Assembly (NCBI RefSeq): GCF_003003215.1
Contig: NZ_PVUF01000009.1
Span: forward strand, 62,001-126,000
Source: Tritonibacter scottomollicae
GTDB taxonomy: Bacteria; Pseudomonadota; Alphaproteobacteria; Rhodobacterales; Rhodobacteraceae
Length of the DNA: 64,000 nucleotides
Reading direction: 5' to 3'
The notes under the pieces were generated by a model, which had not been told where the DNA came from, ran no database searches, and worked only from the letters and a program-made list of their open reading frames with translations. The translations under genes were made by a program, and so were the position numbers. Shown here piece by piece: positions 4,957 to 62,152 of the stretch (its first letter is position 1; each line of letters starts with the position of its first letter).

Positions 4957-5001
4957 CGCCATGGCCACCCTCCAATTCGCGCCGCAAGGAGCCCATCCGC
5001 A

Positions 5002-7044: not shown

Positions 7045-7154
7045 CATAACTCATGGGTCGCTTACGGACCTGAGCCCTGAGTCGCGCGGCGTTGGAGCAG
7101 CAGCAACCTACGCCAGCGCTTGTGGCCTGAGGCATTTTTCACGCAGTGGGCCAA

Positions 7155-7205
7155 GCGCCGCGCCTTTGGCGCGGCGCGGGTCGCATCGGGCAAAGCCCGA
7201 TGCGA
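7155..7205. repeat. Two adjacent perfect hairpins in the 7045-7268 gap
   Basis: The 224-bp gap between convergent genes holds two back-to-back perfect inverted repeats. The first is GCGCCGCGCC, loop TTT, GGCGCGGCGC (7155-7177). The second is TCGCATCGGGC, loop AAA, GCCCGATGCGA (7181-7205). Neither is followed by a T-run on either strand, so they are not classical intrinsic terminators, although they could stall polymerase or protect 3' ends between convergent operons. The paired tight hairpins look like a REP-type palindromic unit. I see nothing else in this gap. Confidence 0.6.
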
Positions 7206-7268
7206 AACCCTTCACTCCTCAGATGTTCTTGCAAACCACCGCGGGCAGGTGGGCTTGGACAATGTCCC

Positions 7269-8135
7269 TCAAGACGACGGCCCAAACAGCACCGACACCT
7301 CCGGGCTTCCCGGCAGGCCCTCGTAGCTCACCGTCGCACCGCCCTTGAGGCTGCCCGGTGGCACCAACGGTCCGAAAGAGCCCACCGAGACCAAATCTCC
7401 CGCCTTGAAGGTCACGCCAACCGCGTGCAGCCAGAGGATCGTCTCCGCCGGATGCCCCAGAACGGAGGTTCCAGGCGCGGAGAGCACGACTTCGCCCGCG
7501 CCATCGCGCAGCTGCACCTGCATCTCGGCCAGCGCCTTGGTCATTGCCGCGGCGTCCGCCACCGGGATCGCTGCGCCCAGAACCCCGTGTCGCGCGCCCA
7601 CCCCCATTGCGGTGATCGTTTCAGGCGTCATCGGCTGGCTTTGGTCCACCGCAAGATCCGGCAGTTCGATGAAGGGGCGGATGCTGGAAATGTTCTGCAT
7701 CACTTCCTCGCGCGTGGTGGCGGAATTGACGGCGGAATCGCCGATCTCCAGCACCAGATCCGCCTCCACCATCGGCACCGCGCCCCAGGGCACGTCGAGC
7801 GTCGCGCCACTCTCAAGCATCATGTCACGATAAAGCACGCCGCGCACCGGCGCACTGGCGCCAAACCGCTCCTGCGCCGGGGTGCTGGTCAGCCCTGCCT
7901 TGTAGCCGATCACCGGACCCAGATGCGCAGCCAAGGCATCGCTCAGACGGGCTTGGGTGCAAAGTGCATCCACCATCGTGCCGCCCTGCCCCAGTGCTTC
8001 GGTTGGACGATGATCCATGTAATCTGCCACAAACCGCGCCACCTCCTCGTCGCTGGCGCAATCGGCGGCAGCGCTGCCCGCCCCGATCACCCCCGCCGCG
8101 ATCAGCGCCCAAATCCAGTGTCCTACCTGCTGCAT
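7269..8135 (-). CDS. Exported 2-keto-4-pentenoate hydratase / fumarylacetoacetase-fold protein
   Basis: A 288-residue protein whose body matches the 2-keto-4-pentenoate hydratase / fumarylacetoacetase family. It has IGYKAGLTS, with the conserved lysine region of hydratases; VEADLVLEIGD at the site of the family's E-x-E metal ligands, with Asp at the second position; and IRPFIELPD carrying the usual third Glu. Unusually it begins with a clear Sec signal peptide (MQQVGHWIWALIAAGVIGAG, then SAAADCAS), so the enzyme should act in the periplasm, whereas the family is normally cytosolic in aromatic catabolism. A Shine-Dalgarno GAGGAGG lies about 9 bases before the ATG. It follows pbpC by 26 bp on the same strand and is probably its operon partner. 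The substrate is unknown. Confidence 0.85.
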   Translation of the reverse strand: MQQVGHWIWALIAAGVIGAGSAAADCASDEEVARFVADYMDHRPTEALGQGGTMVDALCTQARLSDALAAHLGPVIGYKAGLTSTPAQERFGASAPVRGVLYRDMMLESGATLDVPWGAVPMVEADLVLEIGDSAVNSATTREEVMQNISSIRPFIELPDLAVDQSQPMTPETITAMGVGARHGVLGAAIPVADAAAMTKALAEMQVQLRDGAGEVVLSAPGTSVLGHPAETILWLHAVGVTFKAGDLVSVGSFGPLVPPGSLKGGATVSYEGLPGSPEVSVLFGPSS

Positions 8136-8161
8136 TCCGCTCGCCTCCTCTTTCGCTCGCG

Positions 8162-10342
8162 TCAGCCCGTCTCCTCGATCTCGACGGTCACCCGGGCAGA
8201 TTGCCCGTCCGCGTCGATCACCACAAGCGTGGCGTGGCCCGGCCCGGGGCTCGGCAGGTCGAGATCACGGGACCGCAGACCCCGGGCCACCGGCAGTCCG
8301 TTGGCCAGCACCGTGAAGGGCAGCCGCCCGCCGCGCAGCTTCAGCGCCAGACGGCCTTCCACCAGCGCCAGCCGGGCGCGGATGGGCGGAAAGACCACCT
8401 CCGGCGCCCCGATGCCAGTGTCGGAAAACACCTCATCCCGGTCCCGGAACCGCTGCAACGGCTGCGGCAGCTCGGCCGAGGACAGCACCAGCGCATTGGG
8501 CGGCGGCGGTGACAACGGCGTCAGGTCGGGCTTCAGCGCAGCAAAGGCCTCGAACAGCACCGGCGCCGCCAGTTCCGCGCCAAAGACGCCGGGAACCGGG
8601 GTGCCATCCGCCCGTCCCAGCCAGACCCCGATCACATGCTGGCCGTCCCAGCCCACGGCCCAGGCATCCCGATGCCCGTAGGAGGTGCCGGTCTTATAGG
8701 GCAGCACGCCAGCCCGGGCACCGCGCGGCACCGGCACATCGCGCAGGATATTGCCAAGATACCAGGCTGCCACGGGGGAAATCACCCGCGGGGTCGGGTC
8801 GCTGCCGTCGCCTGCCTGAACCGTCAGCCGTGGTCCCGCGCCCCCCGCTGCCAGAACCGCATACATCTGCACCAGATCCTGCAGGCTGACACCAACGCCA
8901 CCAAGGCTCACCGCCAGCCCGGGTTTGCCGCCCGGCAGCACGGGGCGCATGCCGGCCTGACGCATTGCCGCCATCAACCGCGAGGGACCAAGAGCGTCGG
9001 TCAGGGTCACCACCGGCGTGTTAAGTGACATCTGCAGCGCATCCCGCACGCGAATGTCGCCGCGAAAGCTGCCGTCAAAATTCTGCGGCGCGTAGCCGCC
9101 AAAGGACACCGGCGCGTCGCGGATCAGCGTATCGGGATGCACCAGCCCCTCGTCAAAGGCGAGGCCGTAGACCAGCGGTTTCAGGGTCGAGCCGGGCGAG
9201 CGCTCAGCCGTCACCATATCGACAAAGCCGCGCCGCGCGGAATTGGTATAGTCCGGCGCACCGATGCGGGCGAGGATCTCGCCCGTGTGGTGATCCGCCA
9301 CGATCATCGCCGCACTGAGCCGCGGCCCCGCCGCCGTCACCCGCCGGTGCAGCACCGCCTGTAGCCGCGCCTGCAGATCGGCGTCCAGCGTCACGTCGAA
9401 CCGCGCCTGCGCTGGCGAGGCCGTCCGCAGCTGGTCGCCCAGATGCGGCGCCAGCAACGGGAACGGGCGGCGGCTGTCCGGCACCCGTGCCTGCGCCGCC
9501 TGACGCGCGACCTGTGCCGACAGTACCCCGGCTTCATAGCTGCGTTGCAACACCCGCGCCCGTGCGGAGCGTGCTGCACTTACCGAACGGTCGGGGCGTC
9601 GCGTTTCCGGCGATTGCGGCAGCGCCACCAGCAGCGCCGCCTCGGCGGCGGTCAGGCGGTGCGGCTCCTTGCCGAACCAGGCAAAGCTCGCCGCCCGCAC
9701 CCCTTCGAGATTGCCGCCAAAGGGCGCATGGGTCAGATAGAGCGTCAGGATCTCCGGTTTGGACAGCTGCCGCTCCAGCGCCAGCGCCACCCGGATCTGG
9801 CGCAGCTTGCCGCTCCATCGACCGGTGGAACCATCCTCCAGCAGCCGCGCCACCTGCATGGTCAGCGTGGAGCCGCCGGATACTGTGCGCCCGTGCCACA
9901 GGGCCTGCCCGGCCGCGCGCAGCATCGCCAGCGGGTCAACCCCCATATGCGTGTCGAACCGCTTGTCTTCGTAGGCGCGCAGCATCTGCAGATAGGTCGG
10001 GTCAACATCCTCGGCCCGCACCGCCATGCGCCAGATGCCATCCTCCACCGGATAGGCCCGCAACAGGCGTCCGGTGCGGTCCCGCAGCTCGACCGAGGTT
10101 TCCGCAAGCCTGCGCGGCAGCTCGGTGGCCGCGACCCAAGCCTCCAGCCCTTTGCCACCCAGAAGACCTGCAACCAGCATCACCAACAGCGGCGTCCGGA
10201 GCCGCGCCATCGTCTGGACCAAGGGGCGGGCACCGCCCCCGCCTGACCGAACGGTCAGGCCGCGCCCGGCCCCGGCAGGGGCCGGGCGCCCCCGCCGTCG
10301 CCGCAACATGCGCCGCCAGCCGGGGCGATCTGTCGGTGTCAT
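8162..10342 (-). CDS. pbpC: Penicillin-binding protein 1C (transglycosylase/transpeptidase)
   Basis: A 726-residue bifunctional peptidoglycan synthase of the PBP1C class. After an Arg-rich cytoplasmic tail of about 45 residues comes one signal-anchor helix (LRTPLLVMLVAGLLGG). The glycosyltransferase family 51 domain follows, with its catalytic-Glu motif EDKRFDTHMGVD near residue 125 and GGSTLTMQVARLL. The transpeptidase domain has the active-site motif SPGSTLKP near residue 382 and KTGTS near residue 550. The C terminus is the small beta-domain typical of PBP1C. The ATG overlaps the alpha-2-macroglobulin stop (ATGA), the classic pbpC/alpha-2-macroglobulin pairing in which the macroglobulin is thought to guard the periplasm while PBP1C repairs the wall. 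Confidence 0.95.
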   Translation of the reverse strand: MTPTDRPGWRRMLRRRRGRPAPAGAGRGLTVRSGGGGARPLVQTMARLRTPLLVMLVAGLLGGKGLEAWVAATELPRRLAETSVELRDRTGRLLRAYPVEDGIWRMAVRAEDVDPTYLQMLRAYEDKRFDTHMGVDPLAMLRAAGQALWHGRTVSGGSTLTMQVARLLEDGSTGRWSGKLRQIRVALALERQLSKPEILTLYLTHAPFGGNLEGVRAASFAWFGKEPHRLTAAEAALLVALPQSPETRRPDRSVSAARSARARVLQRSYEAGVLSAQVARQAAQARVPDSRRPFPLLAPHLGDQLRTASPAQARFDVTLDADLQARLQAVLHRRVTAAGPRLSAAMIVADHHTGEILARIGAPDYTNSARRGFVDMVTAERSPGSTLKPLVYGLAFDEGLVHPDTLIRDAPVSFGGYAPQNFDGSFRGDIRVRDALQMSLNTPVVTLTDALGPSRLMAAMRQAGMRPVLPGGKPGLAVSLGGVGVSLQDLVQMYAVLAAGGAGPRLTVQAGDGSDPTPRVISPVAAWYLGNILRDVPVPRGARAGVLPYKTGTSYGHRDAWAVGWDGQHVIGVWLGRADGTPVPGVFGAELAAPVLFEAFAALKPDLTPLSPPPPNALVLSSAELPQPLQRFRDRDEVFSDTGIGAPEVVFPPIRARLALVEGRLALKLRGGRLPFTVLANGLPVARGLRSRDLDLPSPGPGHATLVVIDADGQSARVTVEIEETG

Positions 10343-48778: not shown

Positions 48779-49645
48779 TTAAAGACCGCGTTCCAACCAG
48801 CCAGATACCTCGTCCCAAAGAGCCTCACGCCCCGGGCGAAAGGCGCCTTCGTGCCCGATGCGGTTCACGCCGTACTCTCGTGGACTGCGCACGACCAGTT
48901 CCGTATCCGCACTCGGATAAACCGCGAGCAGGTCCCGTCCACTCGCGCGCGTGGCTATGGGATCATCCGAGAAGATCCACGACCGGATCGGCGCGTTGAC
49001 CTCTGCATAGGCTTGAGGATGCAGGGCGCCCTCTAGATCAGGCTGGAAATAGCCCCGCCGGTGGCTCCAGCGTCTCCATGTGCGGAACAGACGCGGAGGC
49101 AGCGCCTCGCCCTGCCAGCCTCCGATCGGCATCACAGCCTTGTGCCGCCACAAAGAGTAGCTTCCCAGTCCCCACCAGAAGTAGAGTTCCTTAGGTATAT
49201 TCCGCCAGTGATGGCCGCCCCAGTAACCGGTTCCAATACTGAGAAACGCATGCCGTAGCAGCCGGGATTGGTTCGGCATCAAACCCAGAAAATGCCCCCC
49301 CACACTATGCGCTACATGCGTGAGCGGGAGATCACCGGCAACGCGCGCCAGAACATCAACTGCGGCGGACATGTCATACCGGCCCCAGTCGGAGTACTCG
49401 ATATTGGCAAAGCCATGCCCAGCGTTGAAGGATCCACCGATACCGCGATAGTCGTAGGTCAATACCATTGCACCCCGCCCCGCAAGATACTGTGCAAAAT
49501 GACGGTAGAACCTGCGGGGAAACCCTGTGCCCGCCGACATCATCACCGCGTGTGTCGCTTCGGCTTGACTGTGGTACAGCGTGCCCGCCAGAGGCCAACC
49601 ATCTGCCGCCGCAAAGCCAATGTCTTCGATCAAAGTTTCAGCCAC
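48779..49645 (-). CDS. Alpha/beta-hydrolase
   Basis: A 288-residue serine hydrolase-fold protein. VMMSAGTGFPRRFYRHFAQY forms the oxyanion region, VLTYDYRGIGGS follows, and the nucleophile elbow is HVAHSVGGHFLG (Ser near residue 114). A late Asp in FSDDPIATRAS and His in NRIGHEGAF complete a plausible triad. The GTG start overlaps the MarR regulator stop by 8 bases, so the regulator and hydrolase form a unit. The substrate is unknown. Confidence 0.88.
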   Translation of the reverse strand: MAETLIEDIGFAAADGWPLAGTLYHSQAEATHAVMMSAGTGFPRRFYRHFAQYLAGRGAMVLTYDYRGIGGSFNAGHGFANIEYSDWGRYDMSAAVDVLARVAGDLPLTHVAHSVGGHFLGLMPNQSRLLRHAFLSIGTGYWGGHHWRNIPKELYFWWGLGSYSLWRHKAVMPIGGWQGEALPPRLFRTWRRWSHRRGYFQPDLEGALHPQAYAEVNAPIRSWIFSDDPIATRASGRDLLAVYPSADTELVVRSPREYGVNRIGHEGAFRPGREALWDEVSGWLERGL

Positions 49646-50111
49646 GGGACGCTGGGCCTCCTGTGATGATCTTGTCGGCGTTGTCTTCCAGATGGGTCAG
49701 AAAGCGCCGGATCACCTCGCATTCCTCGTCGCTGAACGGAGCCAGCAAGGTTGCATTATAGTGACGCGTGTCCTGACGTGCGCGCATCGCCAGCGCTTCG
49801 CCCTTCTCGGTCAGGTGGACGAGAATGCTGCGTCCATCGGTTGTCGCCGGTTTGCGGGATACCAACCCTCGCGTGCTCAGCCGGTCTACCAGACCTGTGA
49901 TGCCGGAGTTGGCCATGGAAAGCTGGGCGGCAAGTGCGGTTGATGGAAGGGCACCGTCGTTCAGCAGGATAATCAGCACCGCCATCTGGCTAGTGCTCAG
50001 ATCCAGTTCCTGCCGGCCGCGATTGTCTGCAGCACGGAACAACGCGCTATGGGCCTTTTGCAAGTGATGAAAGACACGAAACCTTGTCAAACCAATCTCC
50101 TTCGCATGCAA
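49638..50111 (-). CDS. MarR-family transcriptional regulator
   Basis: A 157-residue winged-helix repressor of the MarR type. Helix-turn-helix segment STSQMAVLIILLNDGALPST then ALAAQLSMANSGITGLVDRL, followed by the wing GLVSRKPATTDGRSILVHLT. Dimerisation helices flank it. It is upstream of and overlaps the alpha/beta-hydrolase gene, which it may control. Its ligand and operator are unknown; no convincing palindrome was found before its start. Confidence 0.92.
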   Translation of the reverse strand: MHAKEIGLTRFRVFHHLQKAHSALFRAADNRGRQELDLSTSQMAVLIILLNDGALPSTALAAQLSMANSGITGLVDRLSTRGLVSRKPATTDGRSILVHLTEKGEALAMRARQDTRHYNATLLAPFSDEECEVIRRFLTHLEDNADKIITGGPASRG

Positions 50112-50187
50112 AGCAATTTAGTTTGTATAGGAACTACTTTCAGCTCCTGACAATGGTGTCCCGACGTCAGGCAAGCGCGTCTCGATA

Positions 50188-50218
50188 CAAAAAAGGCCAC
50201 GCCCAGGGGGCGCGGCCT
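50188..50218 (-). terminator. Intrinsic terminator of the TRAP/gamma-glutamyl operon
   Basis: On the minus strand AGGCCGCGCCC pairs with GGGCGTGGCCT (one G-U), loop of 3, followed by TTTTTT (the A-run at 50188-50193 on the plus strand). It lies 24 bases after the iron alcohol dehydrogenase stop and separates that operon from the MarR gene. Confidence 0.85.
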
Positions 50219-50242
50219 CTCTCATTTCGGGGGGCGACCCTG

Positions 50243-51388
50243 TCAGAGCGCAGCTTTGAACAGCTGCGTCAGGTTTTCTTCGGTCAGTTTGATCGGGTTT
50301 CCGCCGCAGCTCGGATCAATGATCGCGCCTTTGACCAGCTCCGGAATCGAGTCCTCGGTCACGCCCAGTTCGGAAAGGCCACGCGGGATGCCGAGACTGT
50401 CATTGAACTCCTGCACAAAGGCTCTGAAGCCTTCAAAGCCCCCCTCAATCCCGAGGTAGGCTGCCGCGATGTCAAACCGCTCCGATATCTCGGAGGCGTT
50501 GAACTCCAGCACAGCAGGCATGCAGACTGCATTGGTGGTTCCATGGTGAGTATTGAAATGCGCACCAATCGGGTGGCTCATGGCGTGGATTGCACCGAGG
50601 CCTTTCTGAAAGGCTGTCGCGCCCATGGCCGCCGCAGACATCATATGCGCGCGCGCCTCAATGTCGGTGCCATCGGCGTAAGCGCGCGGCAGGTAGTCCT
50701 TGACCAGGCGCATGCCTTCAAGCGCCATGCCCTGAGACATCGGATGGTAGTGCGGCGAGGAGAATGCCTCGACACAGTGAGCAAAGGCATCGAGGCCGGT
50801 GCCCGCGGTAATGAACTTGGGCATGCCGACGGTCAGTTCGGGATCGCAAATCACCACGGTGGGCAGGACCTTGGGGTGGAAGATGATCTTTTTCTGATGG
50901 GTAACACTGTCGGTGATCACAGAGGCACGGCCCACTTCAGAGCCAGTGCCCGCAGTGGTCGGCACCGCGATGATAGGCGCGATAGCGTCTGCATCGGCGC
51001 GGGTCCACCAGTCGCCGATATCCTCGAAATCCCAGACCGGGCGGGTCTGGCCCGCCATGAAGGCAACCATCTTGCCCAGATCAAGACCGGAGCCGCCGCC
51101 AAAGGCAATCACGCCGTCGTGGCCACCTGCCTTGTAGGCCGCGACACCGGCATCGAGGTTCTTCTCGTTCGGGTTGGGGTCCACCTCTGAAAACATCCCG
51201 CGACCAAGGCCGGCGGCCTCCATGATGTCGAGGGTGGATTTTGTCACGGGTAGATCCGCAAGCCCCTTGTCGGTGACGAGCAGTGGCTTCTTGATCCCGG
51301 CCTGCGCGCAGGCATCGGCCAGTTCCTTGATCCGACCGGCGCCGAATTTGATTGCGGTCGGGTATGACCAGTTTCCAGTGAGAGACAT
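50243..51388 (-). CDS. Iron-containing alcohol dehydrogenase
   Basis: A 381-residue group III NAD-dependent dehydrogenase. NAD-binding GGGSGLDLGKMVAFMAG, then VPTTAGTGSEVGRASVI, and metal ligands in AGTGLDAFAHCVEAFSS (Asp, His) near residue 199 and HAMSHPIGAHFNTHHGTTNA (two His). The ATG at 51388 is preferred, 8-9 bases after AGGA; an ATG at 51394 is only 2-3 bases from it. It is the last gene of the TRAP operon before a strong terminator. In that setting it may oxidise a hydroxyl group on an imported or gamma-glutamylated compound. Confidence 0.93.
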   Translation of the reverse strand: MSLTGNWSYPTAIKFGAGRIKELADACAQAGIKKPLLVTDKGLADLPVTKSTLDIMEAAGLGRGMFSEVDPNPNEKNLDAGVAAYKAGGHDGVIAFGGGSGLDLGKMVAFMAGQTRPVWDFEDIGDWWTRADADAIAPIIAVPTTAGTGSEVGRASVITDSVTHQKKIIFHPKVLPTVVICDPELTVGMPKFITAGTGLDAFAHCVEAFSSPHYHPMSQGMALEGMRLVKDYLPRAYADGTDIEARAHMMSAAAMGATAFQKGLGAIHAMSHPIGAHFNTHHGTTNAVCMPAVLEFNASEISERFDIAAAYLGIEGGFEGFRAFVQEFNDSLGIPRGLSELGVTEDSIPELVKGAIIDPSCGGNPIKLTEENLTQLFKAAL

Positions 51389-51410
51389 CAGCATGTTCCT
51401 GTGGTGAGCC

Positions 51411-51480
51411 GGGGTGGGGGCGCTGCCCCCGCTTGCCATACGGCAAGCTCCCCCGAGGTATTTTCAAAAAGATGAAGGGG
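51411..51480 (-). repeat. ATACCTCGG-hairpin repeat, copy B
   Basis: Read on the minus strand directly after the aldehyde dehydrogenase stop: CCTTCATCTTTTTGAAAATA, then CCTCGGGGG, a hairpin GCTTGCC-GTAT-GGCAAGC (plus 51431-51448) and a hairpin of GGGGGC with GCCCCC (51416-51430). The core and order match copy A at 43289. Confidence 0.6.
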
Positions 51481-51481
51481 G

Positions 51482-52864
51482 TTAGCCCGTGACTTTTTTC
51501 AGGTGGTAGGACTTGGGTCGGGTCAGGTTGTGATAGCCGATCATCGACAGGCCACCGCCGCGACCGGTGTTCTTGCAACCGGTCCAACACAGCCCCGGAT
51601 CGAGGTAGTCGGCGCGGTTCATGAACACGGTGCCGGTTTCGATCTGATCGCCCACGGCTTGCGCGCGCTCCAGATCCTTGGTCCAGATCGAGGCGGTGAG
51701 ACCAAATTCGCTGTCGTTCATCAGCTTGATGGCTTCTTCGTCGGAAGAGACCTTCATGATGCCAACGACCGGGCCGAAGCTCTCATCGCGCATCACCCGC
51801 ATCTCATGGGTGACATTGGTCAGGATCTGCGGCGTCAGATAGGCGCCGCCATCGTCTGCCTCCATGGTGGCGATATGGGCCACGGCGCCCTGTTCGACCG
51901 CCTCGGCGATCTGATCGCGCACCTCTTGAGCAAAGCGCACATTGGCCATCGGGCCGATGGTCGTCTCCGCCTCAAGCGGGTTGCCGAGCTTGTAGCCATT
52001 GACCACCGCCAGGGCCTTTTCAAGGAAGCTGTCGTAAAGGCTTTCATGGACATAGATGCGTTCGATGCCGCAGCAGCACTGGCCGGAGTTGAACATGGCC
52101 CCGTCGATCAACGTGTCGACCGCCGCATCCACATCGGCGTCCTCCATGACATAGCCGGGATCCTTGCCGCCTAGTTCGGTGCCCACGCCGGTGAAAGTGC
52201 CCGCTGCGGCGCGTTCCATTGCCTGACCACCGCCGACGGATCCGGTGAAGTTCACAAAATCAAACGCCTTTTCGGCAATCAGCGCCGATGTGGTATCATG
52301 ATCGAGGAACACATTCTTGAACACAGCTTCGGGCACGCCCGCTGCATGGAAGGCCTTTGCCATCCGTTCCCCGACCAGCAAAGTCTGGGTTGCATGTTTC
52401 AGCACCACACTATTGCCCGCAATGAGCGCCGGAGCGACCGTGTTGATAGCGGTCATATATGGGTAGTTCCAAGGCGCCACGACAAAGACCACGCCGTGGG
52501 GAATGCGCTTGATGTAGCGTTTGAACGTCGCGTCTTCGCCGACCTCGATATCCGCCAGCGACTCAGCCGCGATCTGCGCCAAATGTGATGCGCGTTCGTT
52601 AAACCCGCCAAACTCGCCGCCAAAGCGAACGGGACGGCCCATCATATGGGCAAGCTCCGGCACGATCTCGTCGTTCATCTCGCCAATGGCAGCCACACCC
52701 GCCATCACAAGGTCAATCCGCTCCTGAAGCGGGCGCGCCGCCCAGGCCTTCTGTGCCGTCCGCACAGCGACCACCTCGGCGCGGGCGGCGTCCAGATCCA
52801 GCGTCTCGCGGCTGGCGTAGACCGATCCGTCGATCGGCGAAATACAGTTCAGTGTCTTGCCCAT
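51482..52864 (-). CDS. Aldehyde dehydrogenase
   Basis: A 460-residue NAD(P)-dependent aldehyde dehydrogenase. FVVAPWNYPYMTAINTVAPA, catalytic Glu in GVGTELGGKDPGYV, catalytic Cys in FNSGQCCCGIERIYV near residue 260, and ESFGPVVGIMKVSSDEEAI. The ATG at 52864 has GGAGGAG about eight bases upstream; a longer frame to 52921 is rejected. It sits between a gamma-glutamyl ligase-like gene and an iron alcohol dehydrogenase gene on the same strand, the order expected if it oxidises an aldehyde formed from an alcohol. Confidence 0.92.
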   Translation of the reverse strand: MGKTLNCISPIDGSVYASRETLDLDAARAEVVAVRTAQKAWAARPLQERIDLVMAGVAAIGEMNDEIVPELAHMMGRPVRFGGEFGGFNERASHLAQIAAESLADIEVGEDATFKRYIKRIPHGVVFVVAPWNYPYMTAINTVAPALIAGNSVVLKHATQTLLVGERMAKAFHAAGVPEAVFKNVFLDHDTTSALIAEKAFDFVNFTGSVGGGQAMERAAAGTFTGVGTELGGKDPGYVMEDADVDAAVDTLIDGAMFNSGQCCCGIERIYVHESLYDSFLEKALAVVNGYKLGNPLEAETTIGPMANVRFAQEVRDQIAEAVEQGAVAHIATMEADDGGAYLTPQILTNVTHEMRVMRDESFGPVVGIMKVSSDEEAIKLMNDSEFGLTASIWTKDLERAQAVGDQIETGTVFMNRADYLDPGLCWTGCKNTGRGGGLSMIGYHNLTRPKSYHLKKVTG

Positions 52865-52907
52865 TGGCCAACTCCTCCGGGGGCGCAGGATACGGCCCCG
52901 ATTATGT

Positions 52908-52952
52908 TCAGCTTTTTCCAAATACCTCGGGTGTGCGGGGGCTGGCCCCCGC
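52908..52952 (+). repeat. ATACCTCGG-hairpin repeat, copy C
   Basis: TTCAGCTTTTTCCAAATACC then TCGGGTGT and hairpin GCGGGGGC-TG-GCCCCCGC (52935-52952). It shares the TTC-CTTTTT-AAATACCTCGGG core with copies A and B but is oriented against both neighbouring genes. Confidence 0.5.
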
Positions 52953-52966
52953 CTGTCCGCGCGATA

Positions 52967-54319
52967 TCAGGCTTTCTCAAACCCGCGCGCAACTTCGTAG
53001 TCGGTCACCACGCGGTTGAACTCTTCAATCTCCCATTCAGCCGCGCGGGCATAATGAGTGATCACCTCTTCGCCAAAGGCCTCACGCAGCATATCAGACG
53101 CCAAAAGCGCCTCACGTGCGGCCAACAAGGTGTTCGGTATGTGCTGCTGCGGCTTACCCGCATAGGCGTCGCCAGCGAAGGCGTCCTGCAACTCGAGCTT
53201 CTCCTCGATCCCTTTGAGGCCCGCCGCCAGCATAGCAGCTTGTGCCAGATAGGGGTTCATATCAGATCCCGGCACTCGGCATTCCACCCGCACCGCCTTG
53301 CTTCCTTCACCGCACAGGCGGAAGGCGGCAGTCCGGTTATCAACCGACCAGACCAGCTGTGTCGGTGCAAAGGTGCCCTTGGCGAAACGCTTGTAGCTGT
53401 TGATGTAGGGCGCCATGAAATAGGTGAAGTCAGCCGCGTATTTCAACAGCCCCGCCATATAGTGGTCCATCAGCTTCGACTTGCCGAGCGGCGCGCTCTC
53501 ATCAAAGAAGGCGTTGGCGCCCTCTTTCCACAGCGACTGATGCACATGCGCGGCAGACCCGACTCGATCATGGTGCCATTTGGGCAGGAAGGTCGCGGCA
53601 TAACCCTGCTGGTGCGCGATTTCCTTGATGCCGTGCTTGGCCAGCGTGTGGTGGTCGGCGGTCGCCAAAGCCTCGTCATATTTGACGTTCAGCTCTTCCT
53701 GACCGGCTTCTGCCTCGCCCTTCGATCCTTCGATCGGAATACCCATGGCGCGCAAATGGTTGCGGATCGGGCGCATCACAGGTTCCTCCTTCGAGGTCTG
53801 CATGATGCTGTAATCTTCATTGTAGGTGGAGATTGGCTCAAGTTGCTGGAACCCACCGGCAGCGACTTCGTCATGGGTGCCTTTGAAGAGGAAAAACTCC
53901 AGCTCGGTCGCCATGACCGGCGACAGTCCCAGTTCCGCACAACGCGCGATCTGTGCCTTCAGCATTTCCCGCGGGGAATGCGCCACCGGCGCGTGGGTGT
54001 GGTGGTCGATCACATCACAGAGCACCATGGCGGTCCCATCGAGCCACGGCACCGGGCGCAGCGTCGAGAGGTCCGGCTTCATGATGTAGTCGCCGTATCC
54101 CCGCTCCCAGCTGGTGGAGGCATACCCATCGGGCGTTGCCATGGCGAGGTCGGTGGCCAGCAGATAGTTGCAGCAGTGGGTTTCACCTTCGGCCATCTCA
54201 AGAAAGGCCTCGGCGTGGAAGCGTTTGCCCATCAGGCGGCCCTGCATGTCCACAATGCAGACCAGCACGGTGTCGACCTGTCCGGCGGCGATCTGTTCCT
54301 TGAGATCCTCGAAAGTCAT
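52967..54319 (-). CDS. Glutamine synthetase family protein, probable gamma-glutamyl-amine ligase
   Basis: A 450-residue member of the glutamine synthetase superfamily, closest by eye to PuuA/GlnT-type enzymes that attach glutamate to an amine. Motifs: VCIVDMQGRLMGKRFHAEAF, active-site VMATELEFFLFKG, GEAEAGQEELNVKYDEALA, and AAHVHQSLWKEGANAFF, with NRTAAFRLCGEGSKAVRVEC near the end. It lacks the C-terminal adenylylation region of housekeeping GlnA as far as can be seen. The ATG at 54319 has GGGAA seven bases upstream. The TRAP transporter upstream and dehydrogenases downstream imply a catabolic rather than ammonia-assimilating job. Substrate unknown. Confidence 0.9.
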   Translation of the reverse strand: MTFEDLKEQIAAGQVDTVLVCIVDMQGRLMGKRFHAEAFLEMAEGETHCCNYLLATDLAMATPDGYASTSWERGYGDYIMKPDLSTLRPVPWLDGTAMVLCDVIDHHTHAPVAHSPREMLKAQIARCAELGLSPVMATELEFFLFKGTHDEVAAGGFQQLEPISTYNEDYSIMQTSKEEPVMRPIRNHLRAMGIPIEGSKGEAEAGQEELNVKYDEALATADHHTLAKHGIKEIAHQQGYAATFLPKWHHDRVGSAAHVHQSLWKEGANAFFDESAPLGKSKLMDHYMAGLLKYAADFTYFMAPYINSYKRFAKGTFAPTQLVWSVDNRTAAFRLCGEGSKAVRVECRVPGSDMNPYLAQAAMLAAGLKGIEEKLELQDAFAGDAYAGKPQQHIPNTLLAAREALLASDMLREAFGEEVITHYARAAEWEIEEFNRVVTDYEVARGFEKA

Positions 54320-54394
54320 CTGGCGTTCCCTGTTATTCTGACAGGGGGCAGGACAAAGCCCTGCCCCCGACATATGTTGGTTTTCTTACGGAGA

Positions 54395-55429
54395 TCAGCC
54401 GTAGCGATACGGACGACCGGCCTTGGCCATGTCGGCGTTGTACTTCTTGAAGATCTCGACAACGCGTGCCTTGGTCTCGGACTCGGCTGCGATCTCGTCC
54501 CAGAACTTCACGGCAGCGTCTTCGACCTGTTGCCATTCGGCATCGGGGATCGACGTCAGTTTCAGCTTGTCACCGTTGACCCGCAAGGACGCTTCACCAC
54601 CCCAATACCACCACTGACGATAGTAGTGCGACTGATCCGTGCAGACGCGGAACAGCGCCTGCAGATCTTCCGGAAGCTCATTCCAGCGATCCATATTGGC
54701 AAAGAACGACCCGGCCCAAGCACCCGAGATATTGTTGGTCAGGAAGTGGTTGGTCACATCGGCCCACCCGACGGTGTAGTCTTCGGTAATGCCGGACCAT
54801 GCGACGCCATCCAGCTCGCCGGTCTGCATCGCGACTTCGATGTCCTCCCATGGCAGGGTCACCGGCACCACGCCAAACTGGCTCAGGAAACGGCCCGCAG
54901 TCGGGAAGGTGAAGACGCGCTTGCCCTTCAGATCCTCAAGTGAGTTGATCGGGTCTTTGGTGGCAAAATGGCAGGGATCCCAGGCCCCGGCAGAGATGTG
55001 CTTCACGCCGACCTTGGAGTATTCCTCGTCCCAGATCTCGTTCAGGCCGTACTGGTTGAACAACACCGGCACGTCGAGCGAATAGCGGGACGCGAAGGGG
55101 AAATAGCCACCAAAGACGGTGACTTCGGTCGGTGACGCCATGGAGTCATCATCGGACTGCACCGCATCGATCGTGCCTTTTTGCATTGCGCGGAACAGCT
55201 CGCCGGTGGGCACCAGCTGATCGGCGTAGAACAGCTCGATCTGCATGCGGTCGCCTGCGATCTTGTTGAACATCTTGATCGCCGGATCGATCACATGAGC
55301 TGCCAGCGCAGGACCGGCATAGGTCTGCATCCGCCAGGTGATCTTGTTCTGCGCGATGGCCGGGGTGGCCAGCGGAGCCGCCGCGGCGCCCAGCGCTGTG
55401 GTCTTTAGAAAATTACGACGTGTTGTCAT
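54395..55429 (-). CDS. dctP: TRAP transporter substrate-binding protein DctP
   Basis: A 344-residue periplasmic binding protein of the DctP family. It begins with a Tat signal, MTTRRNFLKTTALGAAAAPL, carrying the twin-arginine RRNFL motif. The conserved core LFYADQLVPTGELFRAMQKG, TIDAVQSDDDS and the FPTAGRFLSQFG region near residue 180 are typical, with the Arg used by TRAP proteins to bind carboxylates or sulfonates probably in this area. It is downstream of the membrane components in the same operon and upstream of the gamma-glutamyl ligase gene. The ligand is not known; the neighbouring enzymes suggest an amine or amide with an alcohol group. Confidence 0.92.
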   Translation of the reverse strand: MTTRRNFLKTTALGAAAAPLATPAIAQNKITWRMQTYAGPALAAHVIDPAIKMFNKIAGDRMQIELFYADQLVPTGELFRAMQKGTIDAVQSDDDSMASPTEVTVFGGYFPFASRYSLDVPVLFNQYGLNEIWDEEYSKVGVKHISAGAWDPCHFATKDPINSLEDLKGKRVFTFPTAGRFLSQFGVVPVTLPWEDIEVAMQTGELDGVAWSGITEDYTVGWADVTNHFLTNNISGAWAGSFFANMDRWNELPEDLQALFRVCTDQSHYYRQWWYWGGEASLRVNGDKLKLTSIPDAEWQQVEDAAVKFWDEIAAESETKARVVEIFKKYNADMAKAGRPYRYG

Positions 55430-55458
55430 GTCTTTCAGTCTCCTCTGTCGGACTAAGT

Positions 55459-56196
55459 TCAATGGCTGTGCCCGCAGGGCCTCAGCCGTCTGAATCCTTC
55501 CCGGAGCCGTTGCGGTGCATTCTCGCGAAGGATGTCGCCATGCGCGAGCACGACGATATTGGGCTGCCAATCCAGCATCCGGGTCAGCGCATCGCGCAAC
55601 TTGTCCCGATTGCCGGAGAAGGACATCCAGATGTCCAACGGCATTTTTCCATTGGGGGCGAGGATACCCGCCACCCAGGCAAAGGGTCGGATCCACAGGG
55701 GCAGATCCTTGCCATGCATGTTCTCGATCAGGTCGGTGAGCACCAGCGTGTGGCTCTTTTTGTGAAAGAACACGACCTCTGTGTGCACCTTGCTCCCCCG
55801 AACGATAAGTTGATCAATCTCACCCGACCAGTCTGTCGCAGGGCCGTCCTCCAAATCTCGATCAAAGGTGATCTCGACCTTGCGGCTCTGTGCCCGCTCC
55901 CGCACGCCGGGTGACGCCCATGCGATGGTATCAGCACAGTGGCGCTGCCAATCCGCGATGTAGGCGTAGTGAATCCAGTTGGGCGACACGAGGTGACGGA
56001 TGGTGCCCAGCCTCTTCAGTTCTTCCGCCAATGCCTCTGTGTAGGCGATGGGCGAATGCAGGAAGAGGTCGCCGTTCGCCAGCCGGATGACCGTCATCCG
56101 GGTCGGGAAAGGGATCCGGTAGAAGTCGATGGTCGGACCATCCACAATCCAGATATCCTCACCCAGAGGCGTCAGGAGAGGCCCGTCATTTCCCAT
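55459..56196 (-). CDS. DUF4336 domain protein
   Basis: A 245-residue protein of the DUF4336 family, which has a metallo-beta-lactamase-like outline. Seen here are GEDIWIVDGPTIDFYRIPFP at the start, LVSPNWIHYAYIADWQRH in the middle, and LVLTDLIENMHGKDLP with NIVVLAHGDIL at the end. The classical H-x-H-x-D-H metal site is not evident. The ATG at 56196, with GGAGA seven bases upstream, lies 11 bases inside dctM, so it is translationally coupled and belongs to the TRAP operon. Function unknown; a hydrolase acting on the imported compound is one possibility. Confidence 0.8.
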   Translation of the reverse strand: MGNDGPLLTPLGEDIWIVDGPTIDFYRIPFPTRMTVIRLANGDLFLHSPIAYTEALAEELKRLGTIRHLVSPNWIHYAYIADWQRHCADTIAWASPGVRERAQSRKVEITFDRDLEDGPATDWSGEIDQLIVRGSKVHTEVVFFHKKSHTLVLTDLIENMHGKDLPLWIRPFAWVAGILAPNGKMPLDIWMSFSGNRDKLRDALTRMLDWQPNIVVLAHGDILRENAPQRLREGFRRLRPCGHSH

Positions 56197-57505
56197 AGAC
56201 GGTCTCCGGCAGCCACAGCGCAATTTGCGGGAACGCCATGATGATCGCCAGCGCCAGAACCATGATCCCAACAAACGGCACGATCGAACGATAGATATCC
56301 GTCAGCGAGATTTCCGGCGGGGCCATCGCGCGCATCAGGAACAGGTTGTAGCCAAACGGCGGCGTCATATAGGCGATTTGCGTGGTGATCGTGTAGAGCA
56401 CACCATACCAGACCAGATCAAAGCCAAGTGCGGCCACCAGCGGCACATAGAGCGGCGCCACGATCACCAGCATGGCGGTATCATCAAGGAAGGTGCCCAT
56501 GATGATGAAGCTGAGCTGCATCAGGATCAGGATCATCCAGGGGTTGAGACCCAGCTGCTCGGTGAACAGGCTGTCGATCGCCTTGACCGCGCCGAGACCG
56601 TCAAACACCGCGCCAAAGCCAAGGGCCGCGAGAATGATCCACATGAACATGCAGGAAATCGCCAGCGTGCTCTTCGTGCAGGATTCGAAGATCTTCCAGG
56701 TCATGCGGCGCTTTGCGACCGATGCCGCCAATGCGGTGAGCGCGCCAATGGCTGAGCTTTCCACCAGCGAGGTCCAGCCGTTGACGAACGGCACCATCAT
56801 CGCGGCAAAGATCATCAACGGCAGCGCCCCGGCCCAGAGCAGACGCAGCTTCTCGGCCCGCGGGACCTCATGCGCATCTTCCATGGCCGGGCCCAGCTCC
56901 GGGTTCGCTTTGCAGCGCAGCCAGATGTAGAGGATAAACAGGCCCGCCATCATCAGCCCCGGCACGACCCCGGCAAGCCAGAGCTGCCCGACCGGCTGAC
57001 GCGCAATCATCGCATAGAGCACCAGAACCACCGAGGGCGGCACCAGAATGCCTAAGGAGGACCCCGCCTGAATGACGCCGGTCACCATGGTTTTGTCATA
57101 GCCGCGCCGCAGAAGTTCCGGCAGCGCGATCGTGGCACCGATGGCCATGCCCGCCACCGACAGGCCGTTCATGGCCGAAACCAGCACCATCAGGCCGATG
57201 GTACCAATTGCAAGCCCGCCATTGATCGGCCCCATCCAGACATGGAACATCTTGTAGAGGTCATCGGCCAGGCGGCTCTCGCTCAGCACGTAGCCCATGA
57301 AAATGAACATCGGCAGGGTCAGCAGCGGGTACCATTTCATCAGCTTCATCGCAGCTGAGAAGGGGATATCATAGCCGCCCACGCCCCACAGCAGCAGCGC
57401 CGCTACGGCACCCACCGCGCCAATGGCACCAAAGACGCGCTGCCCAGTAAAGAGCATCAGCATCATCGATGCAAACATGAAGATGGCGATATATTCCTGG
57501 CTCAT
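56186..57505 (-). CDS. dctM: TRAP transporter large permease DctM
   Basis: A 439-residue membrane protein with about twelve helices and the DctM hallmarks TGQRVFGAIGAVGAVAALLL, LPMFIFMGYVLSESRLADDL, GLMVLVSAMNGLSVAGMAIG and ILVPPSVVLVLYAM. It is the ion-coupled transport subunit of a TRAP carrier and would work with DctQ and DctP encoded beside it. The start overlaps the dctQ stop by 4 bases and the stop overlaps the DUF4336 gene by 11. Confidence 0.95.
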   Translation of the reverse strand: MSQEYIAIFMFASMMLMLFTGQRVFGAIGAVGAVAALLLWGVGGYDIPFSAAMKLMKWYPLLTLPMFIFMGYVLSESRLADDLYKMFHVWMGPINGGLAIGTIGLMVLVSAMNGLSVAGMAIGATIALPELLRRGYDKTMVTGVIQAGSSLGILVPPSVVLVLYAMIARQPVGQLWLAGVVPGLMMAGLFILYIWLRCKANPELGPAMEDAHEVPRAEKLRLLWAGALPLMIFAAMMVPFVNGWTSLVESSAIGALTALAASVAKRRMTWKIFESCTKSTLAISCMFMWIILAALGFGAVFDGLGAVKAIDSLFTEQLGLNPWMILILMQLSFIIMGTFLDDTAMLVIVAPLYVPLVAALGFDLVWYGVLYTITTQIAYMTPPFGYNLFLMRAMAPPEISLTDIYRSIVPFVGIMVLALAIIMAFPQIALWLPETVYGK

Positions 57506-58089
57506 GAGGCGCGCTCGCTTGGGATGTCATGGCCCTTGAGGCGGGCGATATCTTTGAAGAGTTCCGAGATGGCTTGCAGCAGCATCAAGAAGAAGCCGAA
57601 GACCATGATGGATTTGATTGGCCAGATGAAAGGGCGCCACGCGGTGGACGCACGCTCCATATGGCCAATTTCTTCGGCGCCGGTGATCAAGCCCCAGAAG
57701 AAGGCAAAGGGATTGTCGCCCCAATAGCCCAATGAATACGCCGTGGATCCAAGTCCGCCGTAGAACAGAATGGCCAGATAGGTGATCAGCGCCAGGACGG
57801 TGAAGGCATCGAACCACGCTTTCCGTCGTGTCGACCAATTGTGATAGAACAGATCCATGCGCACGTTCGAGCCCAACTGGATCGAGTAAGCGCCGCCGAG
57901 AATGTAATAGGTGACCATGGCAAATTGTGCCATTTCCAGGGTCCAGAGCGAGGGCAGAAAGAAGGTCTTGGAGATCGAGGACCACAACAGGATCCCCATC
58001 ATCGCAAACAACCCCCACATCATCACGCGGCCGATCCGATAATTTACCGCATCAACCACGCGCACATATCCAAGCATGGCGCCGATCAT
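57502..58089 (-). CDS. dctQ: TRAP transporter small permease DctQ
   Basis: A 195-residue protein with four hydrophobic helices, including MMWGLFAMMGILLWSSISKT and AQFAMVTYYILGGAYSIQLG, and the DctQ pattern NVRMDLFYHNWSTRRKAWFD. It pairs with DctM in the membrane. It overlaps dctM by 4 bases and the upstream amidohydrolase gene by 4, confirming operon structure. Confidence 0.93.
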   Translation of the reverse strand: MIGAMLGYVRVVDAVNYRIGRVMMWGLFAMMGILLWSSISKTFFLPSLWTLEMAQFAMVTYYILGGAYSIQLGSNVRMDLFYHNWSTRRKAWFDAFTVLALITYLAILFYGGLGSTAYSLGYWGDNPFAFFWGLITGAEEIGHMERASTAWRPFIWPIKSIMVFGFFLMLLQAISELFKDIARLKGHDIPSERAS

Positions 58090-58850
58090 GCAAACGCCTC
58101 CTTCAGGGTGGAGCGGATCCAGGGCGCGAGCTGTTCAGCCCAATCCGCTTGCTGCTCCGCCGTGGCAATCAGATCGTTTCGTATTTCCAGCATGACGTTC
58201 AGCAGCCCGTTGTCGCAGCCATGCAAATCCAGCGTATGTGCAACCCCGTCCGCGGCGCTGTACGGTTCATTCAACCGAACATTCCACGGCAAGGTTTCGG
58301 GCTGCCTGACCATCATCGCCTCGGCAAAGCGATCATCGCGCCCATGCAGCAGACCCAACTCCACCGCCCGGCTCTCGCCTTTGTAGATCGGCGTGAAGCT
58401 ATGCACCGTGACCATCAGGCGCAACGCGTCCTTGCCCCGGTTAATTTCATCGGCAAGCGCGGCGCAGAACGGTTCGTACACCGCCTGCACACGCTGCGCA
58501 CGTGCGGCATCCGACAGATTTTGATTGCCCGGCACGTCAAAAATCTCTGACGCTGCGGGAATTGCGGTCGGTGACTCCGGCGGTCGGTTGAGGTCATAAA
58601 CCAGACGCGAGATGCGCCCCTCGACAAGCGGGCCCTGCAACAGTTCTGCCAGTTTGCGGGCCACGCCCAGCGCACCTGGATCCCAGGCAATGTGACTATT
58701 GCGTGCAGAGACTTCGAGGCCAAGATCCGCCAAACCCGGAGGGATCCAGTTGGCGGCGTGTTCACACACCACAATCACCTCAGCCCCAGCAGCTGATGAG
58801 GTCGTTGAGAAGGAGGGACCGAAGTCAAAGGCAGAGGAATCCGTATTCAT
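58086..58850 (-). CDS. N-formylglutamate amidohydrolase family protein
   Basis: A 254-residue zinc amidohydrolase of the HutG (N-formylglutamate deformylase) family. Motifs: VIVVCEHAANWIPPGL with zinc-site residues, HIAWDPGALGVARKLAEL, VTVHSFTPIYKGESR, and LHGCDNGLLNVMLEIRNDLI. The ATG at 58850 is chosen over an ATG at 58859 that sits directly on the GAAGAG. It is the first gene of the TRAP operon, and no other histidine-utilisation genes are here, so it may release glutamate from a gamma-glutamyl or N-acyl product instead. That is an inference from context. Confidence 0.85.
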   Translation of the reverse strand: MNTDSSAFDFGPSFSTTSSAAGAEVIVVCEHAANWIPPGLADLGLEVSARNSHIAWDPGALGVARKLAELLQGPLVEGRISRLVYDLNRPPESPTAIPAASEIFDVPGNQNLSDAARAQRVQAVYEPFCAALADEINRGKDALRLMVTVHSFTPIYKGESRAVELGLLHGRDDRFAEAMMVRQPETLPWNVRLNEPYSAADGVAHTLDLHGCDNGLLNVMLEIRNDLIATAEQQADWAEQLAPWIRSTLKEAFA

Positions 58851-59879: not shown

Positions 59880-61040
59880 ATGGATATGCGCAAGCCTCAC
59901 GACAGATTTCACCTCTCGCCCGAGACCCATGTCCTGACCCCGGATGTGGCCGGCCTGACGGCGCTGCTGGAGACCCTGCGTGAGGGCCATTCCCTTCTTG
60001 CACGCCCCTCGGAGGAGCCGATTTCCCCTGTGTTAGAGCCGAAACAGTGGCTCTATTGTCAAAGTTCCGGCTCTACAGGCTATGCCAAGACAATCCGGCG
60101 TACGCCCGACAGCTGGATCCGCAGCTTCGAGATGGATCAGGAGATGTTCGGTCTGTCCTCGGCGGATGTATACGCCAGCCTCGGCACGCTGTCGCATTCG
60201 CTGACGCTGTTTGCAGCCGTCGCGGCCTGTCATATCGGCGCCGACCTGGCGATGCTGGGGAACATGGCTCCGAGGGGGCAGATTGCTGGGCTTGAGCGCC
60301 TTGACGCCTCGGTGCTTTACGCCACGCCAGCGCAGCTTCGGCTGTTGCTGCGGGCGGGTGAGGGGCGGGTGCTTCCCGGTATCCGGCTGATCTTCTCCTC
60401 CGGTGGCAAACTAGATCAGACGACGCGTGCGGCGCTTGGCGTTTTGTTTCCGCAGGCCGAGGTGCAAGAGATCTTTGGCGCTACAGAGACCAGTTATATC
60501 ACGCTGGCCGGACCCGACGCCCCCGCGGGGTCCGTTGGCACGGCCTATCCGGGGGTTGAGCTGCGCCTGACGGAGATGGATGCGGCAGGCGTGGGCGAGA
60601 TCTGGATGCGCAGCCCGTTCCTGTTTGATGGCTACGCCGAAGGACACAGTGCCGAGACCCGCTGGGACGGCGATTGGCTCACCATTGGCGAGATGGGCTG
60701 GATCGACGCTGCCGGGAACCTCTACCCCAAGGGGCGGCGCAACCGCATGGTGACGGTGGCGGACAAGAACGTATTCCCCGAAGAAATCGAAGGCGTGCTG
60801 ATGCGGGTCGAAGGGGTGGAGCTTGCGGTGGCGCTGGCCTTGCCGGACGCCCTGCGCGGTCACCGGATTGTTGCTGTCATCCAGGGCACTGCCGAGGCCA
60901 ATAAACTGCGACACCTTTGCCGACAGGAGATTGGCGATCACGCCGCGCCTAAGGAGATCCGCCAACTTGCCACCCTCCCCATGCTGCCCGCCGGCAAGCC
61001 CGATTTGCGCGCGCTCGCGCGCCTGTGGGACGAAGTTTGA
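59880..61040 (+). CDS. Short AMP-dependent acyl ligase
   Basis: A 386-residue protein of the acyl-CoA synthetase/ANL superfamily. The nucleotide motif CQSSGSTGYAKTIRRTPDSW comes only about 60 residues from the start, against more than 150 in typical enzymes, so most of the N-terminal subdomain is absent. Later motifs are intact: FGATETSYITLAG, IGEMGWIDAAGNLYPKGRRN, DKNVFPEEIEGVL and the catalytic Lys in LPMLPAGKPDLRALA near the C terminus. The ATG at 59880 follows AGGCGGA. It is 58 bp after the rpiR gene and overlaps the thiolase gene by one base. Substrate and acceptor are unknown. Confidence 0.85.
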   Translation: MDMRKPHDRFHLSPETHVLTPDVAGLTALLETLREGHSLLARPSEEPISPVLEPKQWLYCQSSGSTGYAKTIRRTPDSWIRSFEMDQEMFGLSSADVYASLGTLSHSLTLFAAVAACHIGADLAMLGNMAPRGQIAGLERLDASVLYATPAQLRLLLRAGEGRVLPGIRLIFSSGGKLDQTTRAALGVLFPQAEVQEIFGATETSYITLAGPDAPAGSVGTAYPGVELRLTEMDAAGVGEIWMRSPFLFDGYAEGHSAETRWDGDWLTIGEMGWIDAAGNLYPKGRRNRMVTVADKNVFPEEIEGVLMRVEGVELAVALALPDALRGHRIVAVIQGTAEANKLRHLCRQEIGDHAAPKEIRQLATLPMLPAGKPDLRALARLWDEV

Positions 61041-62152
61041 TGCCGAGGATCATCGCGGCCCGCCGCACTGCTGTCGTTCCACACGGCGGCAAATTCGCCT
61101 TGTTAGAGCCACATAATCTGGCAAGACCGGTGATCGAGGCCTGTCTTGCGGATGCCGCGCTTGACGCCAGTGATGTCGGCGAACTGATCCTGTCCAACGC
61201 GCTCGGTGGCGGTGGCAACCCGGCGCGGATCGCGGCACTGGCCGCTGGCCTGCCGGAACGGGTGGCAGGCCTCAGCATCGACCGTCAATGCGCGGGCGGG
61301 CTGGATGCCATCCTGCTGGCACATGCGCTGATCGATGCCGGGATGCGCGAGGTGGTGATCGCGGGCGGAGCGGAGAGCTACTCCCGCCGACCATTGCGGT
61401 CCCGTACCTTTGCCGATGGTCGCCCTCCTGTTCCTTACGATCAGGCGCGGTTCACGCCCTGGGCCGAGCGTGATCCCGACATGGCCAAAGCGGCGGACAC
61501 ATTGGCCCGGACGCTCGATTTAACGCAGGACACTCAGGACGCCTGGGCGCAGCGCAGTCATGCCCGCGCCCGTGGGCATGCGGACAAAAGACAGGCCGAA
61601 ATTGTGCCCATTGAAGGCGTCACTGAGGATGCATTTACCCGCGATCTGACGGATCGGCATTGCCAGCGGGCGAAGACGGTCACCGGCAGCATCACCGCCG
61701 CAAACATGGCCGTGGCTGCGGATGCCGCCGCCTTTGTGGTGGTCGTCAGCGATCGTGTAGCGACGCACTTGCAGAAAGGCGGCATGACACTGGCGCAAGG
61801 CGTGACACTTGGCGCCACGCCCGATCAGCCCGGCCTCGCGCCCGTTCCCGCCATTCGCGAGGTGCTGCGCCGTCAGGGCCTGCAGCCCAATGATCTGCAG
61901 CGGGCAGAGATCATGGAGGCCTTTGCCGTTCAGGCGCTGGCTTGCGTCACAAACGCCCAGTTAGAGCCTGATATAGTCAATCCCGCTGGCGGTGCGCTGG
62001 CGCAGGGACACCCTGTTGGTGCCTCCGGCGCGATCCTCGCGGTGAAGCTGTTCCACGCCCTGCGTATCGGGGACGGGCCGGCCTTGGCCGCGATCGCCGC
62101 AGCCGGAGGACTCGGCACCGCCGCACTGTTTGAGGCCGTCGACCCAGACTGA
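61040..62152 (+). CDS. Thiolase-family protein lacking two catalytic residues
   Basis: A 370-residue thiolase-fold protein. The nucleophile Cys is present in SIDRQCAGGLDAILLA and the active-site His in GGALAQGHPVGASGA. However, the usual NEAFA is MEAFA, and the second catalytic Cys of the C-terminal C-x-G-G-G motif is replaced by Ala (IAAAGGLGTAALFE). Such a protein should not carry out standard thiolysis or Claisen condensation by the textbook mechanism. It begins in a TGATG junction with the short AMP-ligase gene, so the two are translationally coupled. It might act as an acyltransferase or a condensing enzyme with altered chemistry. Confidence 0.85.
   Translation: MPRIIAARRTAVVPHGGKFALLEPHNLARPVIEACLADAALDASDVGELILSNALGGGGNPARIAALAAGLPERVAGLSIDRQCAGGLDAILLAHALIDAGMREVVIAGGAESYSRRPLRSRTFADGRPPVPYDQARFTPWAERDPDMAKAADTLARTLDLTQDTQDAWAQRSHARARGHADKRQAEIVPIEGVTEDAFTRDLTDRHCQRAKTVTGSITAANMAVAADAAAFVVVVSDRVATHLQKGGMTLAQGVTLGATPDQPGLAPVPAIREVLRRQGLQPNDLQRAEIMEAFAVQALACVTNAQLEPDIVNPAGGALAQGHPVGASGAILAVKLFHALRIGDGPALAAIAAAGGLGTAALFEAVDPD

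Follow-up and report, generated by a model that had tools for sequence, protein, structure and literature searches.

The window, by which we mean the whole stretch of 64,000 nucleotides analysed from Tritonibacter scottomollicae, carries a run of minus-strand genes in which a TRAP carrier is found together with a glutamine synthetase-like (GS-like) ligase and two dehydrogenases, and it raises the question of which compound these genes import and convert, and whether such a combination is new. The explanation that we consider very probable from sequence comparison is that the run is the known ethanolamine (eto) operon of a Tritonibacter-group roseobacter, by which ethanolamine would be imported and gamma-glutamylated. 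The pathway is thus one already described in other strains, and the only undescribed feature, a small one, is a gene encoding a DUF4336 protein.

Gene order and the published eto operon

Eight genes follow one another on the minus strand: an FGase-family amidohydrolase, proposed to be a gamma-glutamylglycine amidohydrolase (GGAH; 58086..58850; PF05013, E 1.9e-38), the TRAP small permease dctQ/etoV (57502..58089; PF04290), the TRAP large permease dctM/etoW (56186..57505; PF06808, E 5.5e-66), the DUF4336 protein (55459..56196; PF14234, E 3.3e-16), the predicted ethanolamine-binding protein dctP/etoX of the TRAP carrier, which has a TAT signal (54395..55429; PF03480), the GS-like ligase, a proposed ethanolamine gamma-glutamylase (52967..54319; PF00120, E 9.8e-103), an aldehyde dehydrogenase (ALDH), the proposed producer of gamma-glutamylglycine (51482..52864; PF00171, E 6.3e-113), and an iron-containing alcohol dehydrogenase (Fe-ADH), proposed to be a gamma-glutamylethanolamide dehydrogenase (50243..51394; PF00465 and PF25137). 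The domain matches confirm all eight genes, their strand and their families as named in an earlier note on this DNA, whose nine-gene order holds for those eight and reaches nine only when the divergent plus-strand gene of an RpiR-family regulator (HTH_6 and SIS domains, PF01418 and PF01380; 58964..59821) is counted. That note had also reported four overlapping junctions, but the start sites chosen here give three, FGase/dctQ (4 nt), dctQ/dctM (4 nt) and dctM/DUF4336 (11 nt), while the remaining four junctions, from DUF4336 through Fe-ADH, leave 29, 75, 102 and 87 nt between the genes; these lengths depend on the chosen starts, and several genes have other possible start codons. The single intrinsic terminator claimed for the end of the operon was borne out (50184..50226, minus strand), with a fold of -29.7 kcal/mol, followed by a U run, against a mean of -11.3 for shuffled sequences (z -7.86; 0 of 200 shuffles as good), although a consensus terminator scan had no entry for this hairpin. 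Beyond the terminator, on the same strand, lie genes for a MarR-family regulator and an alpha/beta hydrolase (48779-50111). On the opposite side, the RpiR gene is followed on the plus strand by an AMP-ligase-like gene (386 aa, short for the family) and a thiolase gene (59880-62152). This pair, or the ligase alone at a contig end, adjoins the RpiR gene in 10 of 17 genus regions, and no match above 30% identity was found beside RpiR in 40 family regions.

The gene content and order correspond to the eto genes of Phaeobacter sp. MED193, given as RpiR, GGAH, EtoV, EtoW, EtoX, ETAGA, GAADDH and GETADH (Westermann et al. 2023, PMC10132767). According to the legend of Fig. 5 of that paper, MED193_10021-10056 comprises the same genes in the same order as the window, with the same divergent RpiR gene (MED193_10021); the window reads RpiR, divergent from GGAH-EtoV-EtoW-EtoX-ligase-ALDH-FeADH, with the extra DUF4336 gene between EtoW and EtoX. 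In contrast, the MED193 list has no DUF4336 gene between EtoW (10036) and EtoX (10041), where the locus tag numbers continue in regular steps of five. In the accessible text of the same report, phosphorylethanolamine raises the levels of five MED193 proteins, namely GGAH, EtoX and the three enzymes listed after EtoX, the Kd of EtoX for ethanolamine is 7.9 uM and it binds neither phosphorylethanolamine nor phosphocholine, the PhoX phosphatase frees ethanolamine outside the cell, alaninol is not among the EtoX analogues named, and Vetting et al. are cited for the pathway in Chromohalobacter and Agrobacterium (PMC10132767). Judging by titles and the beginnings of abstracts in the open-licence literature, this is the only paper found that concerns EtoX with ethanolamine. 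A similar pathway has been proposed around GlnA4 of Streptomyces, in which gamma-glutamylethanolamide is likewise converted to gamma-glutamylglycine and hydrolysed by an FGase-family enzyme; however, the gene legend there shows a short-chain dehydrogenase, other transporter genes and no TRAP carrier (PMC6529630).

By analogy with these systems, the TRAP carrier EtoXVW (DctP, DctQ and DctM) would import ethanolamine, the GS-like ligase would join it to the gamma-carboxyl group of glutamate at the expense of ATP, Fe-ADH would convert the resulting gamma-glutamylethanolamide to the aldehyde, ALDH would convert the aldehyde to gamma-glutamylglycine, and the FGase-family enzyme would split the latter into glycine and glutamate, so that glutamate could be reused. 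The RpiR-family regulator would control the operon, and DUF4336 would be an optional accessory tied to the TRAP carrier. For the window strain, we infer every catalytic step and the control by RpiR from homologues, which in the published accounts available provided the ethanolamine binding, the crystal with ethanolamine and the induction by phosphorylethanolamine. The chemistry proposed in the earlier note (import, attachment of glutamate, alcohol and aldehyde oxidation, release of glutamate) agrees with the published assignment, in which the substrate is ethanolamine (PMC10132767). Its view that a TRAP carrier combined with gamma-glutamylation would be new does not stand, because the pathway and an amino-alcohol TRAP carrier had already been published, together with an ethanolamine-bound structure, a Kd and induced proteins.

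An EtoX-like gene (E <= 1e-60) is present in 17 of 18 genus genomes and in 108 of 198 family genomes, the window's own included in both counts, and such genes are present on 17 plasmid records. The suggestion that the gene order might be conserved across the family was followed up in 57 regions around EtoX-like genes of other genomes, namely 17 genus regions (16 genomes) and 40 family regions hand-picked from the 108 EtoX-positive family genomes, a non-random sample mostly of longer contigs. The seven-gene core FGase-dctQ-dctM-dctP-GS-ALDH-FeADH is complete and in order in 44 of them, and from this the grouping of the eto genes is more than chance. Among the 13 regions in which the core is incomplete, three (L045, L046 and L085) are cut by contig ends, in two (L073 and L084) FGase is the one core gene not in view, in L075 the order is rearranged and FGase is missing, L079 has FGase and TRAP genes and no ligase, and in six (L050, L052, L053, L054, L077 and L083) the TRAP genes occur with none of the enzymes. 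Homologous operons lacking the ligase, which the earlier note had named as evidence that would count against its proposal, do exist in the form of several TRAP-only loci, but they are a minority among the 57 regions. Since several TRAP sets have no ligase nearby, the carrier is therefore not always coupled to these enzymes.

The binding protein, the ligase and the substrate

The window DctP aligns with 4uab_A without gaps over residues 27-343 (E 2.7e-190), and the second-best PDB sequence reaches only E 2.1e-16. In the available portions of the papers, 4UAB is described as Csal_0678 of Chromohalobacter salexigens crystallised with ethanolamine, in which Glu220 is the platform for the amine and the hydroxyl of the ligand (PMC12410723), and as lacking the arginine by which carboxylates are held in other TRAP proteins (PMC4646407); Vetting et al. 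are the source cited for it (PMC10132767, PMC4646407, PMC12410723). Its host is a gammaproteobacterium, and the two systems were compared by the near-identical binding protein only. In the window DctP, Glu216 lies within WSGITEDY and Phe173 within RVFTF. By alignment and with an assumed numbering offset, Glu216 would be the equivalent of the platform Glu220, and Phe173 would occupy, also by alignment, the position of the TRAP arginine; Glu216 is conserved in all 66 EtoX-like proteins compared. The window protein combines closeness to Csal_0678, a glutamate at the platform position and the lack of the TRAP arginine, features of an ethanolamine-type binding protein in which the residue equivalence is given by alignment only. 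The match to an ethanolamine-bound protein would settle the substrate as ethanolamine, and homology speaks against binding of a simple dicarboxylate, another outcome that the earlier note had listed against itself. The predicted structure of DctP was poor (pLDDT 45.2).

A second PDB entry, 4xf5, has a binding-protein sequence identical to that of 4UAB and presumably holds 2-amino-1-propanol. Together with the finding that the DctP of some operons is only ~63% identical, with partly different residues in the pocket region, this entry would favour an operon whose main substrate is a different small amine or amino alcohol (alaninol, aminopropanol or a polyamine), ethanolamine being secondary. We regard such an operon as improbable, because the window DctP is so close to the ethanolamine-bound protein and because of the induction by phosphorylethanolamine and the micromolar affinity of EtoX in MED193 (PMC10132767). 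It could also be argued that the GS-like protein, which lies within the glutamine synthetase fold family (PF00120), is an ordinary glutamine synthetase using ammonia, and that the run of genes has been brought together by chance. This has almost no credence in view of the conserved core order, and the scores of the protein with the GlnA, type III and gamma-glutamylputrescine synthetase models fall far short of the cut-offs, none of the equivalog cut-offs listed being reached. Furthermore, the ligase lacks the DGSS motif, which we take to be part of the ammonium site, whereas the genome's own GlnA (L001) has it. Activity with ammonia only, a further outcome named against the earlier proposal, thus appears unlikely from these comparisons. 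The closest PDB match of the ligase is 5dm3 (5dm3_A, E 1.5e-206), presumably the product of the neighbouring Csal gene. A ligase that gamma-glutamylates ethanolamine remains our preferred reading. Of the three FGase genes that the genome contains, the one in the operon scores lowest (133.6 bits vs 249.8 and 237). The EutB large subunit gave no PF06751 match in the genome, with E. coli as a positive control, and the classical ethanolamine ammonia-lyase (EutBC) route is therefore absent.

The DctP relatives of ~63% identity (L051, L086-L091, L125, L050, L052-L054, L084 and L085) can be divided by six positions of the pocket region into two types, DQYFED and AWFVEA, and the glutamate is kept in both. 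The DQYFED type (7 loci) occurs in complete operons; two of the seven loci of the AWFVEA type are in complete or nearly complete operons, and the others lie apart from the enzymes. At L053 (10771-15710), a lone AWFVEA-type TRAP set is located beside genes for a DeoR regulator, a DAO-family oxidoreductase and an FGGY kinase, a neighbourhood that looks like polyol use, and a DeoR gene is also found near L050.

The DUF4336 protein

The DUF4336 gene, to which the earlier note assigned no role, is the sole part of the operon that lies outside the published gene list as available, and its presence with the eto operon is an undescribed variation. In the open-licence literature, no published link of DUF4336 to ethanolamine was found by titles, and no paper was found that brings together ethanolamine, a TRAP transporter and the metallo-beta-lactamase fold. 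The predicted structure of the protein (pLDDT 91.6) has the alpha-beta/beta-alpha fold of the metallo-beta-lactamase superfamily, as Foldseek matched it to 2p97_A (TMq 0.65) and to many class B enzymes (E near 1e-9). The fold is alike, but identity is at most 18% among the matches listed; the HxHxDH metal motif of metallo-beta-lactamases is absent from the window sequence, and the DUF4336 profile had no match among PDB sequences at E 0.01. Six residues, N73, H76, E140, H145, D155 and H219, are invariant in all 50 sequences compared and may form a candidate metal site. DUF4336 is most likely a cytoplasmic metal-dependent hydrolase.

A DUF4336 gene is located between dctM and dctP in 4 of 18 genus genomes, the window's included. 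When the contigs of the best 80 of 413 DUF4336 relatives were examined, the nine closest (60-91% identity) were all found between dctM and dctP, in Epibacterium sp. Ofav1-8, Tritonibacter mobilis, Phaeobacter sp. HF9A, three Leisingera, Halocynthiibacter, Cribrihabitans and one alphaproteobacterial MAG, three of these loci (L118-L120) being in the same genomes as the three other genus positives. None of the other 71 loci (at most 59% identity) has this position, several of them showing one flank only. The boundary at 60% versus 59% was set once the neighbourhoods were known, and L126 lies on it (59.9%); a firmer criterion is the tree, computed by a quick method with a midpoint root from the window protein and 49 of the 80 loci, in which the nine relatives and the window protein form one clade with an SH-aLRT of 100. 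Eight of the nine loci are in complete operons, and the DUF4336 gene overlaps dctM by 11 or 17 nt in all nine. Since the FGase gene is kept in eight of the nine, DUF4336 is no replacement for FGase. Relatives of 47-49% identity, also among the best 80 of 413, come from records titled Alkalibacterium, Streptococcus sanguinis and cyanobacteria (L192, L193, L197 and L178). No plasmid-borne DUF4336 of at least 60% identity was found among 39 records, and 20 regions with homologues away from the operon, 11 of which had a DUF4336 frame, gave one neighbour pair common to two regions and no lead.

The ninth locus, L126 of the MAG (3003-8794), has PhoX-EtoV-EtoW-DUF4336-EtoX in a row on one strand, and none of the gamma-glutamyl pathway enzymes was found within 7 kb on either side. 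In this order a head-group phosphatase, uptake genes and DUF4336 are neighbours, and this single case points to a link of DUF4336 with uptake and not with the gamma-glutamyl enzymes. A search of 137 regions, this one included, revealed no further relative of this PhoX gene; the single PhoX gene of the window's genome lies on a different contig.

Whether DUF4336 takes part in ethanolamine use can be argued in both directions. That it is a passenger with no such role, for which we see somewhat less than an even chance, would fit its low frequency among complete operons of other genomes (present in 3 and missing from 41 of 44), its lack in the published MED193 list (PMC10132767), and the 17 of 197 other family genomes that contain an EtoX-like gene as well as a DUF4336 gene, the listed positions being close together in none of them. 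It would also fit the dctM tree, on which the presence of DUF4336 needs six gains or losses, at least four of them forced by well-supported branches. On the dctP tree, the operons with DUF4336 show hardly any clustering (8 changes, a number as low being reached by 43 and 56 of 500 shuffles). Both trees were built from the window, L121-L126 and the 44 operons with a complete core. DUF4336 is an old, optional part of the operon, often lost or moved. However, a mere passenger is difficult to reconcile with the same place and overlap in the nine closest relatives from several genera, the single clade of operon-linked copies, the invariant candidate metal residues, and the L126 MAG, which keeps DUF4336 with the TRAP genes and PhoX upstream where the enzymes are absent. 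We therefore tentatively propose, while judging it short of probable, that the operon-linked clade is a dedicated accessory of the ethanolamine TRAP carrier, a cytoplasmic metal-dependent hydrolase whose metal site would be unusual and which may free ethanolamine from an imported or leaked conjugate or may clear a gamma-glutamyl-aldehyde by-product.

The pathway in the window is a known marine route that leads from phospholipid head groups to glycine, and therefore no blind substrate screen is needed. The operon-linked clade of DUF4336 points at ethanolamine, and a role established for this clade would open a first way into the function of DUF4336.
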